DNA of 64,000 bases from Chitinophaga pollutisoli (GTDB lineage Bacteria > Bacteroidota > Bacteroidia > Chitinophagales > Chitinophagaceae), in the NCBI RefSeq assembly GCF_038396755.1, contig NZ_CP149822.1, forward strand, positions 4,742,001-4,806,000, written 5' to 3'. A model generated the notes under the pieces. That model had not been told where the DNA came from. It searched no databases and saw nothing but the letters and a program-made list of their open reading frames with translations. The position numbers and the translations under genes are program-made. Positions 984-6,790 of the stretch are shown here, one piece after another; positions within the stretch are counted from its first letter, which is position 1, and each line of letters opens with the position of its first letter.

Positions 984-1967
984 TTACCTGGCCTGCCAGA
1001 GTGCGTCGACAAACCAGTTTTTATCGTCCGTGAAGTTTTTCACCGGTGCGAACCCACAGCTGGAAGCCATTTCCCGGATGCCGTCGGGCGTGTATTTCTG
1101 GGAGATTTCCATGTATATGGGTTCGTCTTTCCGGAACCGGATGATGCTGCCGCCGATATGTACGGCCTGGTCGCGAAGGCTCACCAGGAAGCTTTTACAG
1201 GCGCCGGTGGACGGGTCATAAGTCGGGTAATGGAGGAAATGATGCCGCTGGAAATCGGCGTCCAGTTCGCGGTTGATGCGGGTGAGGAGGTTGAGGTTGA
1301 AGTCGCGGGTGAAGCCTTGCCGGTCGTTGTACGCATCGAGGATGAGGCGCGGGTTTTTCTGCAGATCGAAGCCGATGAGCAGGAAATCCCCCGGCCGCAG
1401 CTGGCGGCGCACTTCAGACAGGAAGCCCATGGCTTCTTCCGGCGTGAAATTCCCGATGCTGCTGCCCATGAACATCACCACGCGGGCGCGGCCAGGCGTT
1501 TGTCCAGAACGGGCCAGCATTTCCATGTATTCTCCGTTGAGCCCCTGGACGTCGAGGCCGGGAATCTGTTCGGGCAATGTATCCTGCAGGTGCCGGATGA
1601 TGTTGCCGGATATATCGATGGGATAATACCGGTTCCCTATGCCCGCGCGCATCCATTCGCGGAGGAGGTGGATGGACTTGGAAGCGTCTCCGGCGCCCAG
1701 TTCCACCAGGTCGGCCTGCGACGCCACGGCGCGGATGGCGGATACGATGGCGGCGGACTGCGTTTCCAGTATCTCCATTTCGCAACGCGTCAGGTAATAT
1801 TCCGGGCAATGCATGATCTGCTGGAACAGCGCATCGCCGGCGGCATCATAGAAATATTTGGACTGGAGCCTCTTGGGCTGCGATTGCAAGCCTTCCAAAA
1901 CGTCCCGTAAAAATGCCTGGCGCGCTTTGGAAACGGGCGCGGCCAGTGTAGCGGTTACTGATCTCAT
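984..1967 (-). CDS. egtD: L-histidine N-alpha-methyltransferase EgtD (ergothioneine synthesis)
   Basis: A 327-residue SAM-dependent enzyme predicted to trimethylate histidine to hercynine, the first step of ergothioneine synthesis. Visible family marks are PEYYLTRCEMEIL (55-67), the SAM-binding LVELGAGDASKS (87-98), MGSSIGNF (167-174), and IYMEISQKY (284-292), the region that carries substrate-binding glutamate in this family. Length is normal for EgtD. It is the last gene of a five-gene minus-strand operon and starts 3 bases after the EgtB stop, so translation is probably coupled. Pairing with EgtB makes the assignment firm; other methyltransferases of this fold are not found next to EgtB. 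Confidence 0.93.
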   Translation of the reverse strand: MRSVTATLAAPVSKARQAFLRDVLEGLQSQPKRLQSKYFYDAAGDALFQQIMHCPEYYLTRCEMEILETQSAAIVSAIRAVASQADLVELGAGDASKSIHLLREWMRAGIGNRYYPIDISGNIIRHLQDTLPEQIPGLDVQGLNGEYMEMLARSGQTPGRARVVMFMGSSIGNFTPEEAMGFLSEVRRQLRPGDFLLIGFDLQKNPRLILDAYNDRQGFTRDFNLNLLTRINRELDADFQRHHFLHYPTYDPSTGACKSFLVSLRDQAVHIGGSIIRFRKDEPIYMEISQKYTPDGIREMASSCGFAPVKNFTDDKNWFVDALWQAR

Positions 1968-1970
1968 CGG

Positions 1971-3152
1971 TTACGGTTTTATGGTTTTAGCCAGCCGGAT
2001 GCCTGTAAGCTGCCAGCGTAAATGCGGATGGAAAAAATTGCGGTATGTATGCCTGCTATGGCCCTCCGGTGTAAAATCGGACGCGCCGCGCAGCACTTTC
2101 TGGTTGACCATGAACTTGCCATTGTACTCCCCGACAGGCCCTGCCACGCGCTCGAATCCGGGATAGGGGAGATACGCGCTTTCCGTCCACTCCCAGCGCC
2201 GGCCCCAGTCGAACAGATGCGCCGCGGCTTCCCATTCGAATTCCGTGGGCAGGCGCATGCCTTTCCAGGCGGCGAATGCAGCAGCTTCGTAAAAACTGAT
2301 ATGACAGAGGGGCTCGTCGGGCTCAACGGGCTGAACGCCCTGCAAGGTGTACGTCATCCACCGGCCGTCTTCTTTATGCCAGTACATGGGCGCATGCACC
2401 TGATCGCGCTTCACCCAATCCCAGCCTTCTGCGTGCCAGTACGAAAATTCCTTATACCCGCCGGCGTCCATGAATGCGAGGAATTCGCCGTTGGTAACGG
2501 GGCGGTCCGCAATGGCGTAGGGCTCCAGGTAAACTTTGTGCCGGTCCAGCTCATTGTCGTAACAGAATCCCCCGCCTGAAAAGCCGATTTCATACACGCC
2601 ACCCTCCATGTTGATGAACTTCATGGCGGCGGCGGGCCGGGGCTGGGGTTGCTCTTCGGTGTCGTATGGCGGGAAGAGCGGGTTGTTGCCGAGGATAAAC
2701 TTGATGTCGGTCCACAACAGCTCCTGGTGCTGCTGCTCGTGCTGGCAGCCCAATGTCAGGAGGGTTGCTGCCTCAGCGGGGAGCGGTTGCGCGAGGAGCT
2801 GTTCCATGGCGGAATCAACGTATTTGCGGTATTTGTAGATTTCGTCTACGGTCGGACGGCTGAGATTGCCCCGGTTGGTGCGGATCACGCGGGCGCCGAG
2901 GCTTTCGTAGTAGCTGTTGAACACGAAGTTGAACATGGGATCGAACTCAACATATCCCGCCAGGAATTTTTTCAGCACCATCGTCTCGAAAAACCAGGTG
3001 GTATGCCCGAGGTGCCATTTCGGCGGGCTTACATCTTCTACAGGTTGTACCACATAATCCTCTTTTTGTAGCGGACGGCATATGGATTCCGTCCATTTCC
3101 GCACCTGCAGATATTGCCGCAGGAGCGCCGTGGGAGTAGTTACGTCTAACAT
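1971..3152 (-). CDS. egtB: Iron-dependent sulfoxide synthase EgtB (ergothioneine synthesis)
   Basis: A 393-residue two-domain enzyme that uses O2 and non-heme iron to attach a sulfur donor to hercynine, giving a sulfoxide. The N-terminal DinB-like domain (about 1-150) carries the iron ligands: histidine in WHLGHTTWF (47/50) and the pair H138 and H142 in CQHEQQHQE. The C-terminal FGE-like domain (about 175-393) shows FINMEGGVYEIG, MRLPTEFEWEAA and LRGASDF, ending in WQLTGIRLAK. No EgtC amidase and no EgtE lyase lie nearby; EgtC is dispensable if cysteine is the sulfur donor, and the C-S lyase must come from elsewhere. It starts 1 base after the transporter stop and is followed by EgtD after 3 bases. 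Confidence 0.92.
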   Translation of the reverse strand: MLDVTTPTALLRQYLQVRKWTESICRPLQKEDYVVQPVEDVSPPKWHLGHTTWFFETMVLKKFLAGYVEFDPMFNFVFNSYYESLGARVIRTNRGNLSRPTVDEIYKYRKYVDSAMEQLLAQPLPAEAATLLTLGCQHEQQHQELLWTDIKFILGNNPLFPPYDTEEQPQPRPAAAMKFINMEGGVYEIGFSGGGFCYDNELDRHKVYLEPYAIADRPVTNGEFLAFMDAGGYKEFSYWHAEGWDWVKRDQVHAPMYWHKEDGRWMTYTLQGVQPVEPDEPLCHISFYEAAAFAAWKGMRLPTEFEWEAAAHLFDWGRRWEWTESAYLPYPGFERVAGPVGEYNGKFMVNQKVLRGASDFTPEGHSRHTYRNFFHPHLRWQLTGIRLAKTIKP

Positions 3153-3153
3153 G

Positions 3154-4698
3154 TTAGTCTTTTTGCGTATTCAGATAACGCGTGAGATCGGAAATCGTGC
3201 GGATATGCAATTGCTCCGCCGCCGCTTCCCGCATCATCAGTGCGTATGCATTATTAAAACCGATAGGCTGCAGCCATTGCAGCCCGTATTGTTCCCCGAA
3301 CCTGGAACGTACGAATTGATAAGCGCTGTCTTTATCCCTCAGCCGGTCCGTCAGCGGTTCCTGCAAAATAACGAGGAGTCCGGTGCCGGTATATTCCGGA
3401 TAGAAGTCGATCTGATCGTTCGTCAATGCATCAAAACAAATTTTCGTGCCACCCAGGCCGGTTTTCGAAGAAATTGACAATTCCGTGTTGCCTTCCACGA
3501 GGATTTTGTACATCTCGCAAAGGATATATTGTTCTGTGAAGATCTTCGATCCCATGCGTACCACGCCTTTCTTTCCGTTCCGCGATGGTTTGTACAGCCC
3601 GTTTTCTTCCAGGAAACCGCGCGCCACGGCGGCAGGGCTTTCGTGCAGGAAATCCACGCGGTAATTAAGGTATGTCATCACCGAATCAGAGATGCGCCCC
3701 GCGAGGAGGTCCAGCGCGGGCCCTAGTTCGGGGAACCTTTCCAGCGCGTCTTTCCGCACTACCGGCGCGGCATGGTAAGGCGGGAAAATATGCTTGTCGT
3801 CGTCGAGCGTGATGAGTTGGAAGGCCCGGATGCGCCCGTCCGTACTGTATCCGCTCACCACATCCAGTTTCTCTTCATACAACGCCTGGTACATCACCGC
3901 GTCGTTGATCACAACGGTAGGAATGTTGAGCCCATATACCCGCCGCAACCCCGGCGAACCATCTTCCCGGCCCATGAACTCCGGCGTGAAACCTGCCAGT
4001 AGCTTGCCTTTGGTGGCCGGCACCATGGCTGAAACGGCGAATATGATCACCGCAGCGGCGCCCGCCCAGCGGAAGTGCCGCAGGCTCAGCTTCTGCGCTC
4101 TCGACAACAGGAAGTCAAACAATATAGCGAGCAACGCCGCTGGAATGGCGCCCGCCAGGATCATGCTGGTATTGTTCAGTGCGATGCCCCCGAAAATAAA
4201 TTCACCCAGCCCGCCCGCCGCGATGTAAGCCGCGAGCGTGGCCACACCTACGTTGATCACCGCCGCCGTACGGATGCCCGCGAGGATCACCGGCATGGCG
4301 AGCGGCAACTCCGCTTTGAACAACACCTGCCCGCGCGTCATTCCCATCGCCACCGCCGCTTCACGAACCGTTGCGTCTACCCCTTTGATACCGGTGTAAG
4401 TGTTGCGGATAATCGGAAGCAGCGCGTAGAGGAACAATGCGAAGATCGCCGGCTTGGGACCGATGCCCAGCAAGGGAATGAGAAAGCCCAACAGCGCAAT
4501 GCTGGGAATGGTTTGCATGACGCCGGCAAATCCCAGCGTAACGCCCGCCAGCTTTTGCTTCCGCGCGATAAGGATGCCAAGCGGCACGCCGGCCACTATC
4601 GCCAGCGCTACGGAAAGCAGCGTGAGGTGGATGTGCGTCCAGGTTTGCTCCAGCAGCTTGCCGGACTGGCTTTGCAGAAATTGGATGAATTCATTCAT
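3154..4698 (-). CDS. ABC transporter permease fused to a permuted substrate-binding domain (EgtU/OpuC type)
   Basis: A 514-residue inner-membrane protein. Residues 1-200 are an OpuC-type permease with the coupling motif EAAVAMGMTRGQVLFKAELP; a further membrane helix lies at about 210-228. The rest is a betaine/choline-type binding domain, but in swapped order: residues 233-368 (FMGREDGSPGL, GYSTDGRIRAF, DDDKHIFPPY, LNYRVD) match the C-terminal half of OpuCC, and residues 378-514 (VRMGSKIFTEQYI, GLGGTKICFDAL, YPEYTGTGLL, GFNNAYALM, TISDL) match its N-terminal half. The fused layout is that of EgtU, the ergothioneine importer of pneumococcus and Helicobacter. The gene overlaps the ATPase gene by 4 bases and abuts egtB, which supports ergothioneine over osmoprotectant as the substrate, by inference. 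Confidence 0.85.
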   Translation of the reverse strand: MNEFIQFLQSQSGKLLEQTWTHIHLTLLSVALAIVAGVPLGILIARKQKLAGVTLGFAGVMQTIPSIALLGFLIPLLGIGPKPAIFALFLYALLPIIRNTYTGIKGVDATVREAAVAMGMTRGQVLFKAELPLAMPVILAGIRTAAVINVGVATLAAYIAAGGLGEFIFGGIALNNTSMILAGAIPAALLAILFDFLLSRAQKLSLRHFRWAGAAAVIIFAVSAMVPATKGKLLAGFTPEFMGREDGSPGLRRVYGLNIPTVVINDAVMYQALYEEKLDVVSGYSTDGRIRAFQLITLDDDKHIFPPYHAAPVVRKDALERFPELGPALDLLAGRISDSVMTYLNYRVDFLHESPAAVARGFLEENGLYKPSRNGKKGVVRMGSKIFTEQYILCEMYKILVEGNTELSISSKTGLGGTKICFDALTNDQIDFYPEYTGTGLLVILQEPLTDRLRDKDSAYQFVRSRFGEQYGLQWLQPIGFNNAYALMMREAAAEQLHIRTISDLTRYLNTQKD

Positions 4699-5426
4699 GG
4701 CGCATCCCCTTTACCGTGAAGAAATGCCGCCACAAAGTCGTTTGCGGGATTTTGCTGTAATTCTTCCGGCGTGCCGGTTTGGATGAGTTTCCCTTTATCC
4801 ATGATACCGATATGGTCGCCCATCTCGAACGCGTCGCGGATGTCGTGCGTGACCATCACCACGGTTTTGCCTTTGAATTCGTCGAGCCCGGTGAATTCCT
4901 GCCGGATGCGGGCGCGGGTCACGGGGTCGAGAGCGCCGAAAGGCTCGTCCATCAGCAAAACCGGCGGATCAGCCGCGAGGGCGCGTGCGAGGCCTACGCG
5001 TTGTTGCTGTCCGCCGCTGAGCTGCGCGGGATATTGATGGGCGTGGCTTTCCCACGACAGTCCCAGCTTTTGAAGGAGGTCTTCGCTGCGCCGGCGGATG
5101 CGGAGTTTGTCCCAATGCAGCAATTTGGGCACGATGGCGATGTTTTCGGCTACGGTGTAATGCGGGAACAGCCCATATTGCTGCATGACGTATCCCATTT
5201 GCCGGCGGAGGATTTCCGGGCGGAGGCTGCGGGTATCTTTTCCACGGAACAGCACCTGCCCGCCGTCCGGGTCGATGAGTCGGTTGAGCATGCGCAGGGT
5301 CGTGGTTTTGCCGCTGCCGCTGGTGCCCAGCAGCATGAGGCGTCCGCCTTCCGGCACCCGGAAAGATACGCCCCGCACCGCTGGTACGCCTGCAAATGAT
5401 TTATAGAGCTGACTGGCTTCGATCAT
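4695..5426 (-). CDS. ABC transporter ATPase (EgtV/OpuCA type)
   Basis: A 243-residue ATPase that would power the permease/binding fusion encoded next. It has Walker A GTSGSGKT (34-41), the Q-loop in GYVMQQYGLFPH, the signature LSGGQQQ (136-142), Walker B LLMDEP with D160-E161, and the switch histidine in VTHD. It is shorter than osmoregulated OpuCA/ProV proteins because it ends at about the end of the catalytic domain and has no CBS pair; regulatory CBS domains sense ionic strength in those systems. Their absence fits a nutrient or antioxidant importer better than an osmoprotectant pump. It overlaps the flanking genes by 4 bases on each side. Confidence 0.9.
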   Translation of the reverse strand: MIEASQLYKSFAGVPAVRGVSFRVPEGGRLMLLGTSGSGKTTTLRMLNRLIDPDGGQVLFRGKDTRSLRPEILRRQMGYVMQQYGLFPHYTVAENIAIVPKLLHWDKLRIRRRSEDLLQKLGLSWESHAHQYPAQLSGGQQQRVGLARALAADPPVLLMDEPFGALDPVTRARIRQEFTGLDEFKGKTVVMVTHDIRDAFEMGDHIGIMDKGKLIQTGTPEELQQNPANDFVAAFLHGKGDAP

Positions 5427-6790
5427 GATTCGATGGACATAAACAGGTTATTGAGCGATTCCGAAAACGTGGGATGGGCGAAAACGCCGTCGCGCAGCTG
5501 CGCGCAGGTAATATTGCCCATCATGGCCATTTGCAGTACCGACATGATCTCGCCGCCGGCCACACTAAGAACCGACGCGCCGAGGATCCTGCCGGATGCT
5601 TTGTCTACCACGGCTTTCATCAACCCGCGCATATCGCCTGTCTCGATCCCCCGCGCCACGCGGGTCATGGGAAGCTTCGCCACGAGGATGTCCATCCCTT
5701 TTTCCCTGGCTTCCTGCTCCGTGATGCCGATACGCCCCAGTTCGGGATCGGTGAACATGCAATAAGGCACGGGCCTTTCATCTAAAGTAAGATTTTTATT
5801 TTCCAATAAGTTTTTAGCGACGATCACGTAATCGTTGTAGGAAATATGCGTGAACGCCGGCCCGCCTTTCACGTCGCCGAGCGCATAAATGCCGTTGATA
5901 TCCGTTTCCAGTTTATTGGTGACCGGGATGGTGCCCTGCGCCGTGCTATGGAGCCCTGTTTGTTCCAGCTGAAGGTCGCCGGTATTGGGCGTGCGGCCCG
6001 CCGCGATGAGCAGATGGCTGCATGTGATGCTGCGCTGCTGCCCGTCGGCAGTCAGTTCCAGGACAATAGAATCACCGGATTTCGATACGCGGTGCAATGC
6101 GGAACCGCAGCAAACCGTTATACCATCCTGCACAAGGATTTTCCGGATTTCTTCCGCCACGTCTTCATCTTCCTTTCCGAGTATCCGCGCATTTTTTTCC
6201 AGCAGCGTGACCTCCGCGCCGAACCGCCGGTACATCTGTCCCATTTCCATAGCTACGTACCCTGCGCCGAGGATGCATAAGTGTCTGGGCGTTTCGTCGA
6301 GATCGAGGATGGTGGTGGAAGTGAGGTAAGGCACGGTGTCGAGCCCTTCAATGGTTGGAATGGCCGGACGGGCGCCGGTGTTGATGAAGATATGCTCCGC
6401 ATGGAGGGTTTCGCCGTTTACATCCACGGTTTTCATGCCGGAGAAAACGGCTTTTCCTTCGATAAAATCTAGATTTTCGGTGGAAGCCACGGATTTGGTG
6501 AGGCTGGTGATGGACTGCTGCACGATTTTATCTTTCCTGGCTTTTACTTTCGATAATTCGACCTGCGAAGGATCCGCGGGAATACCGAACTGTGCGGCGC
6601 ATCCGGCGATGTAAGCGACACGGGCGGCGCCGATCATGGTTTTAGTGGGTGTACATCCGTCGTTGACGCAGGTGCCGCCGATCCGGCGTTTCTCAATCAG
6701 CGCGGTTTTCCAGCCTGCTCCGGCGAGCTTCCGCGCCAGCGGGGTTCCTGCCTGTCCGGCCCCGATAATGATGGCATCGTAATTTTTCAT
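5423..6790 (-). CDS. FAD/NAD(P)-dependent disulfide oxidoreductase, mercuric-reductase-like
   Basis: A 455-residue class-I pyridine nucleotide-disulfide oxidoreductase. It shows the FAD-binding IIIGAGQAG (8-15), the redox pair C41/C46 in GGTCVNDGCTPTK, the NAD(P)-binding CILGAGYVAMEMG, the second FAD motif YALGDV, and the C-terminal catalytic FAHPTFSE with the His-Glu dyad. The N-terminal heavy-metal domain and C-terminal cysteine pair of true mercuric reductases are missing. It is the first gene of the ergothioneine/transport operon and overlaps the ATPase by 4 bases. An inferred role is to reduce a disulfide in this pathway, possibly oxidised ergothioneine; lipoamide or glutathione-type substrates are alternatives not supported by context. 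Confidence 0.85.
   Translation of the reverse strand: MKNYDAIIIGAGQAGTPLARKLAGAGWKTALIEKRRIGGTCVNDGCTPTKTMIGAARVAYIAGCAAQFGIPADPSQVELSKVKARKDKIVQQSITSLTKSVASTENLDFIEGKAVFSGMKTVDVNGETLHAEHIFINTGARPAIPTIEGLDTVPYLTSTTILDLDETPRHLCILGAGYVAMEMGQMYRRFGAEVTLLEKNARILGKEDEDVAEEIRKILVQDGITVCCGSALHRVSKSGDSIVLELTADGQQRSITCSHLLIAAGRTPNTGDLQLEQTGLHSTAQGTIPVTNKLETDINGIYALGDVKGGPAFTHISYNDYVIVAKNLLENKNLTLDERPVPYCMFTDPELGRIGITEQEAREKGMDILVAKLPMTRVARGIETGDMRGLMKAVVDKASGRILGASVLSVAGGEIMSVLQMAMMGNITCAQLRDGVFAHPTFSESLNNLFMSIES

Follow-up and report, generated by a model that had tools for sequence, protein, structure and literature searches.

Here we describe a predicted five-gene operon of Chitinophaga pollutisoli in which the genes for ergothioneine synthesis stand with those for a reductase linked to the pathway and for a betaine importer with a circularly permuted binding domain, a new arrangement built of known parts. 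The operon lies at positions 984–6790 of the analyzed window, a stretch of 64,000 nucleotides from a genome that consists of a single contig (6.08 Mb). Its products probably synthesize a single sulfur betaine, most likely ergothioneine, recover it, and maintain it in the reduced state. The five open reading frames (ORFs) are encoded on the minus strand, head to tail, in the order reductase, EgtV, EgtU, EgtB, and EgtD, with junctions of −4, −4, +1, and +3 bases. A first-pass annotation, made from the DNA letters without database searches, had described five genes joined by 4-base overlaps or gaps of 1–3 bases, and the coordinates and junctions found here agree with it.

The arrangement is not a chance one and is widespread in Bacteroidota. 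In a survey of named genomes, the best 80 of at least 525 EgtU relatives were analyzed, with loci from Chitinophaga, Mucilaginibacter, Pedobacter, Dyadobacter, Chryseobacterium, and other genera. The order reductase–ATPase–EgtU–EgtB–EgtD, which the first-pass annotation had singled out for comparison across genomes, was contiguous in 55 of the 80 loci, and six had the order EgtD–EgtB–EgtV–EgtU. EgtB and EgtD were both present in 75 loci, and the domain order of EgtU was the same in all 80. Among the five loci without both genes, the contig stops just past the gene in two (L193 and L220), and in the other three (L213, L248, and L257) some downstream sequence was available and the missing EgtB or EgtD genes were not called there. 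Within the family (147 genomes, a sample that overlaps with the named-genome loci, so that the two are not independent sets), 18 further loci hold a full-length EgtU; EgtV–EgtU–EgtB–EgtD was contiguous, with no other called ORF in between, in 15 of them and had the reductase in front in 10. In a phylum sample of 395 genomes, 12 of the 21 other permuted loci were contiguous with EgtB and EgtD, and a further three had EgtD a few genes away. DUF427 and DinB-like neighbors were considered as operon members and rejected as too rare, each being present in 5 of 20 sets; a DUF427 gene was seen near the cluster at L043:12854-13135 and in four further loci, and a DinB-like gene at L047:5800-6300 and in four further loci (one member identified in each case).

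We then counted the co-occurrence of the transporter with EgtD. The genome searches capped the candidates scored in each genome (three in the phylum search; up to 11 or 12 in those for the reductase and for a class V pyridoxal phosphate (PLP) enzyme), and absences hold for the scored candidates. A full-length EgtU was found in 19 of the 147 family genomes, among them that of C. pollutisoli, and one more genome had an incomplete copy at the end of a contig. EgtD was present in all 20 of these genomes versus 4 of the 127 without this transporter; counted by genus, the figures were 14/14 versus 3/86. Two EgtD fragments (G134 and G051), among 26 EgtD rows in the family, were not counted as present. 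In the phylum sample, the permuted transporter occurred in 22 genomes, all 22 with EgtD, against a background of EgtD in 130 of 395 genomes, or 128 once the weak rows of G381 and G518 were dropped. A second fusion, in which a canonical substrate-binding domain precedes the permease (SBD-first), was present in 31 of the 395 genomes, 30 of them with EgtD. The criteria for these fusions were a permease E value no higher than 1.4e-39 and a frame of about 480–600 amino acids, and their order was confirmed in 18 of 19 fetched loci; the remaining locus, L173, was missed by the script, and its search rows show the same order. EgtB and EgtD lay in the same stretch in 6 of the 18 checked and were contiguous and co-directed in three. 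Two different fusion architectures thus both cluster with EgtB and EgtD. According to PMC9732360, the bacteria in which ergothioneine import has been described do not make the compound, and the first-pass annotation had likewise cited EgtU and EgtV as an importer of other bacteria that cannot make it. Our results reverse this picture: every searched genome in which the full-length permuted transporter was found also gave an EgtD match.

The two synthesis enzymes were identified with curated models. The histidine N-alpha-methyltransferase EgtD (984..1967, minus strand, 327 amino acids) scored 309.7 bits with TIGR03438 against a cut-off of 290.9. On alignment, its Y56, N166, Y206, E282, and S284 were identical to those of 4uy5, and we take these to be the histidine-site residues. 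The sulfoxide synthase EgtB (1971..3152, minus strand, 393 amino acids) reached 542.3 bits with TIGR03440 against a cut-off of 360, and the model of the selenoneine synthase SenA gave 357.4 bits, missing its cut-off of 420 by 63. EgtB aligned best to the Chloracidobacterium (Cabther) enzyme, with the H-x3-H motif (HEQQH), WHLGH, and the YY pair kept; from the alignment to 6qki, these are presumably the iron-binding histidines and the tyrosine pair. Both proteins exceed curated cut-offs and keep the catalytic residues, in agreement with the names given to them in the first-pass annotation.

The transporter consists of two proteins. The EgtV-like, ProV-type ATP-binding cassette (ABC) ATPase (4695..5426, minus strand, 243 amino acids, PF00005) is without a C-terminal extension of about 75 residues that is present in most orthologues. 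Its length is 241–246 amino acids in the window, L032, L146, and L150 and 305–367 in nearly all other orthologues (L033–L049 and L136–L156), with one of 465. That the extension is a CBS domain was considered and rejected, as Pfam gave no match in the two proteins tried. The EgtU-like protein (3154..4698, minus strand, 514 amino acids, PF00528 and PF04069) fuses permease and binding domain and is 88% identical to EgtU of a Chitinophaga pinensis isolate. Its permease domain (residues 1–215; 4054..4698, with PF00528 at residues 37–208) is followed by a circularly permuted binding domain, in which the C half (residues 229–370, 3589..4014, aligned to positions 135–276 of the EgtUC chain) precedes the N half (residues 376–510, 3169..3573, of which 382–507 align to positions 10–134). 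The swapped half order, a feature missed by the first-pass annotation, was present in 40 of 40 full-length proteins of the class, the window protein included. In sequence, the domain resembles EgtU and ProX, with EgtUC as its closest solved sequence; in segment order, it resembles OpuAC. The VIA-align table holds mostly permease matches, so that the lack of EgtUC among its 50 rows is no argument against this relation.

To compare the ligand pocket, 14 contact and specificity positions of pneumococcal EgtU were taken from PMC9732360. The alignments covered 38 permuted proteins (of 40 found; L143 and L044 were left out because of stops in match rows) and 16 SBD-first proteins (of 18 found; L162 and L165 were left out). 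The EgtU match of L143 (G223) holds one in-frame TAA. In the window protein, K242, I243, T275, T296, N339, Y341, E375, R379, Y419, and Y443 were kept, and four positions differed, with F in place of G244, Y in place of F293, F in place of Y337, and G in place of T274. The pocket residues of the N half are K385, I386, F387, G417, T418, Y436, T439, F481, N483, and Y485, among which F387, Y436, and F481 occupy the specificity positions G244, F293, and Y337; in the C half, E240, R244, Y284, and Y308 correspond to E375, R379, Y419, and Y443. Position 274 appears tolerant, because a structure of T274G EgtUC with ergothioneine exists, as its title states. Across the permuted proteins, position 244 was F in 34 and Q in 4, and positions 293 and 337 were Y and F in 38 of 38; the SBD-first proteins had F, Y, and F in 16 of 16. 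The carboxylate and ammonium contacts were kept in all 38 permuted proteins, save Y419 (32/38). As judged from the aligned residues, the pocket is compatible with a betaine that has a quaternary ammonium group but does not tell which one.

The first gene of the operon encodes a flavin adenine dinucleotide (FAD)-containing pyridine-nucleotide disulfide reductase (5423..6790, minus strand, 455 amino acids, PF07992 and PF02852). It belongs to class I of the pyridine-nucleotide disulfide oxidoreductases and carries a CxxxxC motif (GGTCVNDGC) and a C-terminal His-Glu dyad (HPTFSE). An orthologue of at least 46% identity was found in 15 of the 147 family genomes, all 15 with EgtD, and the next match was 34% identical. 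Orthologues in the fetched loci kept the full CxxxxC in 83 of 85 cases and HP-x-x-x-E in 84 of 85. The orthologue adjoins EgtB or EgtD where the transporter lies elsewhere (L261, L262, and L265), and G018, a genome without the transporter, has the order EgtD–reductase–EgtB (L270). Conversely, family transporter loci without EgtB and EgtD (L033, L034, and L037) are also without the reductase. The reductase therefore belongs with the synthesis genes. Reductases beside EgtD in L269 and L271 were dropped as support, being 25–31% identical to the window protein. In L271, from a genome without the transporter, EgtD is flanked by a run of three consecutive, divergent genes for flavin disulfide reductases, and L269 carries, between EgtD and its distant flavin reductase, a glutamate–cysteine ligase resembling EgtA (4327-5619; 178.5 bits, below the cut-off). 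A −7-like box, TAAGTTTG, was seen 178 bases upstream of the reductase start in the window and was not used as evidence.

Several observations weigh against the reading of the operon as one ergothioneine system, and they concern its distribution, its enzymes, and its pocket. The transporter was without EgtB and EgtD nearby in 6 of the 21 phylum loci and 3 of the 18 family loci, although EgtD lies elsewhere in each genome of the three exceptional family loci, and the SBD-first genome G287 gave no EgtD match. In six transporters of full five-gene operons (L042 and L045–L049), the tyrosine-cage residue Y419 is Ser. The Fisher P values of the association (4.5e-21 for the family, 1.5e-14 by genus, and 2.7e-28 for both fusions in the phylum) overstate independence because the genomes are related, and the genus count is the fairer one. 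Moreover, a dedicated lyase was not found in the 6.08 Mb genome, where the EgtE model (TIGR04343) gave at best 115.7 against 400 bits; the EgtC model (TIGR03442) gave 25.6 against 218.65 bits, in agreement with the first-pass annotation, which had noted that both genes were absent. The best TIGR04343 match, presumably a SufS-like enzyme, adjoins a second gene that we take to be SufD-like, and all 14 control genomes likewise gave matches to the model below its cut-off. EgtC would not be expected if EgtB uses cysteine, as suggested by its closeness to the Chloracidobacterium enzyme, whose substrate we take to be cysteine. A housekeeping lyase may suffice, because yeast that carried no fungal gene of the pathway but the first is reported to form small amounts of ergothioneine (PMC11993508). 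A Chitinophaga congener has, beside EgtD and convergent to it, a class V PLP enzyme that resembles EgtE and SufS (L046:12695-13876, G006; 148.9 bits to TIGR04343); it was rejected as the lyase of C. pollutisoli, since at E 1e-30 or better it was found in only 11 of the 147 family genomes and not in the window genome. In one other genus, a class I/II aminotransferase directly follows EgtD (L266–L268; L266:6237-7349, the copy on which Pfam was run) and is a candidate C–S lyase of that genus.

The pocket raises the question of whether the transporter is instead a general glycine-betaine or choline osmoprotectant importer that shares the operon by chance. Its residues at positions 244, 293, and 337 match those of the glycine-betaine binder AfProX (F, Y, and F). 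The label EgtU given by the first-pass annotation is therefore not supported in the pneumococcal sense, the binding domain being permuted and its specificity residues of the AfProX type. In pneumococcal EgtU, G244F lowered ergothioneine binding about 100-fold; the same source describes other subclusters without the specificity residues, some of which, in Helicobacter pylori, aid ergothioneine uptake with lower affinity (PMC9732360). Furthermore, PF04069 has no match in the genome other than the window EgtU, and a search of the genome for a BCCT carrier found none, so that a general betaine or osmolyte role has some room. Because G244, F293, and Y337 are all in the glycine-betaine-binder state, ergothioneine as the ligand rests on gene association and not on the pocket. 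That association is strong: full-length EgtD is lacking in 123 family genomes, and the transporter was found in none of these; in the phylum sample, EgtD genomes account for 52 of the 53 fused transporters. This tie argues against an osmolyte importer, which should not depend on a biosynthesis gene; together with Asn at the N339 position, as in EgtU and not Asp as in AfProX, it makes chance sharing improbable. A transporter of hercynine, the EgtB substrate, would also account for the strict tie to EgtD genomes, and the loss of G244, F293, and Y337 might then reflect a ligand free of sulfur: the carboxylate and ammonium contacts are kept, and G244, which lies beside the thione water network, and the F293/Y337 pair differ. 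However, hercynine is reported to elicit hardly any response from the pneumococcal protein and to show no detectable binding to that of Staphylococcus aureus (PMC9732360). In addition, EgtD would be redundant with imported hercynine, yet it is kept, and we judge hercynine import to be as improbable as the osmoprotectant role.

For the reductase, the alternative is a general oxidant defence enzyme, of the RclA, hypothiocyanous acid (HOSCN) reductase, or mercuric reductase type, that is co-regulated by oxidative stress. Its best solved relative is 6kgy, which we take to be Escherichia coli RclA, and the RclA, HOSCN reductase, and MerA models do match it. All three matches fall below their cut-offs, however, as do those of the mycothione and glutathione reductase models, and among the matches listed (25 of 59) the protein reached the cut-off of no model. 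The orthologue was not found in nine of the 24 family genomes that have EgtD, and that of G007 lies on a different contig from EgtV–EgtU–EgtB–EgtD. On the other side, the restriction of the orthologue to EgtD genomes and its place beside EgtB or EgtD where the transporter is elsewhere or missing speak against general defence, which we regard as unlikely, if less so than the two transporter alternatives.

If the operon does serve ergothioneine, EgtD would trimethylate histidine to hercynine, and a type II EgtB, as its family membership and catalytic residues suggest, would join hercynine and cysteine as a sulfoxide. A nondedicated PLP C–S lyase encoded elsewhere in the genome may then free hercynine 2-sulfenic acid, which a reductant would convert to ergothioneine. 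For the mycobacterial pathway, PMC4493562 reports that EgtE frees a sulfenic acid from the sulfoxide and that only ergothioneine forms with a reductant. The proposed role of the reductase follows from this requirement: with NAD(P)H as electron donor, it may act on the sulfenic acid or on the disulfide of ergothioneine, either directly or via a partner thiol. The ABC importer would recapture leaked ergothioneine, its putative ligand, or import ergothioneine or hercynine, e.g., from fungi. The stronger version, a closed cycle within one operon of ergothioneine-making Bacteroidota that comprises synthesis, a dedicated NAD(P)H reductase with a new specificity for the sulfenate or disulfide of ergothioneine, and a dedicated importer whose Tyr-cage domain was permuted into the OpuAC order and became adapted to ergothioneine or hercynine through a pocket that differs from the pneumococcal one, is proposed tentatively and may well not hold in full. 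The coupling of synthesis, transport, and redox put forward by the first-pass annotation is thus supported for the gene set, by co-occurrence and conserved order, and not for an EgtU of the pneumococcal type.

These results suggest that ergothioneine makers also scavenge and recycle ergothioneine. Recapture of leaked product and scavenging from fungi would both fit a producer, and according to PMC12689799 active secretion of ergothioneine by Mycobacterium smegmatis has been suggested and no exporter has been identified. As the transporter is tied to synthesis genomes across many families of one phylum, leak-and-recapture and scavenging by producers become testable. Oxidized ergothioneine, or the lyase-derived sulfenic acid, has to be returned to the thione, and the reductase is a specific candidate enzyme for this step. 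We found no description of such an operon in the open-licence literature, judged by titles and abstract openings, and neither "Bacteroid" nor "EgtB" occurs in the main text of PMC9732360.

Compared with known systems, EgtB is like the Cabther enzyme (6qki, 6o6l, and 8qf6; 443 bits) in its H-x3-H motif and YY pair and unlike it in its gene context with a transporter and a reductase. The reductase shares CxxxxC and the C-terminal His-Glu with class I flavin disulfide reductases of the RclA and MerA type. Mercuric reductase has a C-terminal Cys pair, whereas none of the 85 orthologues of the window reductase has a Cys in its last 20 residues. The residue-level pocket comparison covers pneumococcal EgtU and AfProX; 8dp6, which we take to be an H. 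pylori EgtU chain, did not rank among the alignments listed. Like pneumococcal EgtU (PMC9732360) and H. pylori EgtUV, the transporter has a permease N-terminal to a PF04069 domain and a separate ATPase, and it keeps the pneumococcal contacts K242, T275, T296, N339, Y341, E375, R379, Y419, and Y443. Unlike in EgtU, the halves of the binding domain are swapped, G244, F293, and Y337 are replaced, and the genes lie in EgtD genomes beside EgtB, EgtD, and the reductase. The permuted half order is that of OpuAC and OpuA of Lactococcus and Bacillus; however, the binding domain is 14–22% identical to these proteins and has a Tyr cage with a single Trp (W475) in residues 229–514, whereas OpuAC uses three Trp (PMC2861598), and the ATPase, unlike that of OpuA, has no CBS match. 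With Archaeoglobus AfProX, the window protein shares F, Y, and F at the G244, F293, and Y337 positions, whereas AfProX has the canonical half order and Asp at the position of N483. The permuted domain joins two subgroups of betaine binders with different segment orders and ligand cages.

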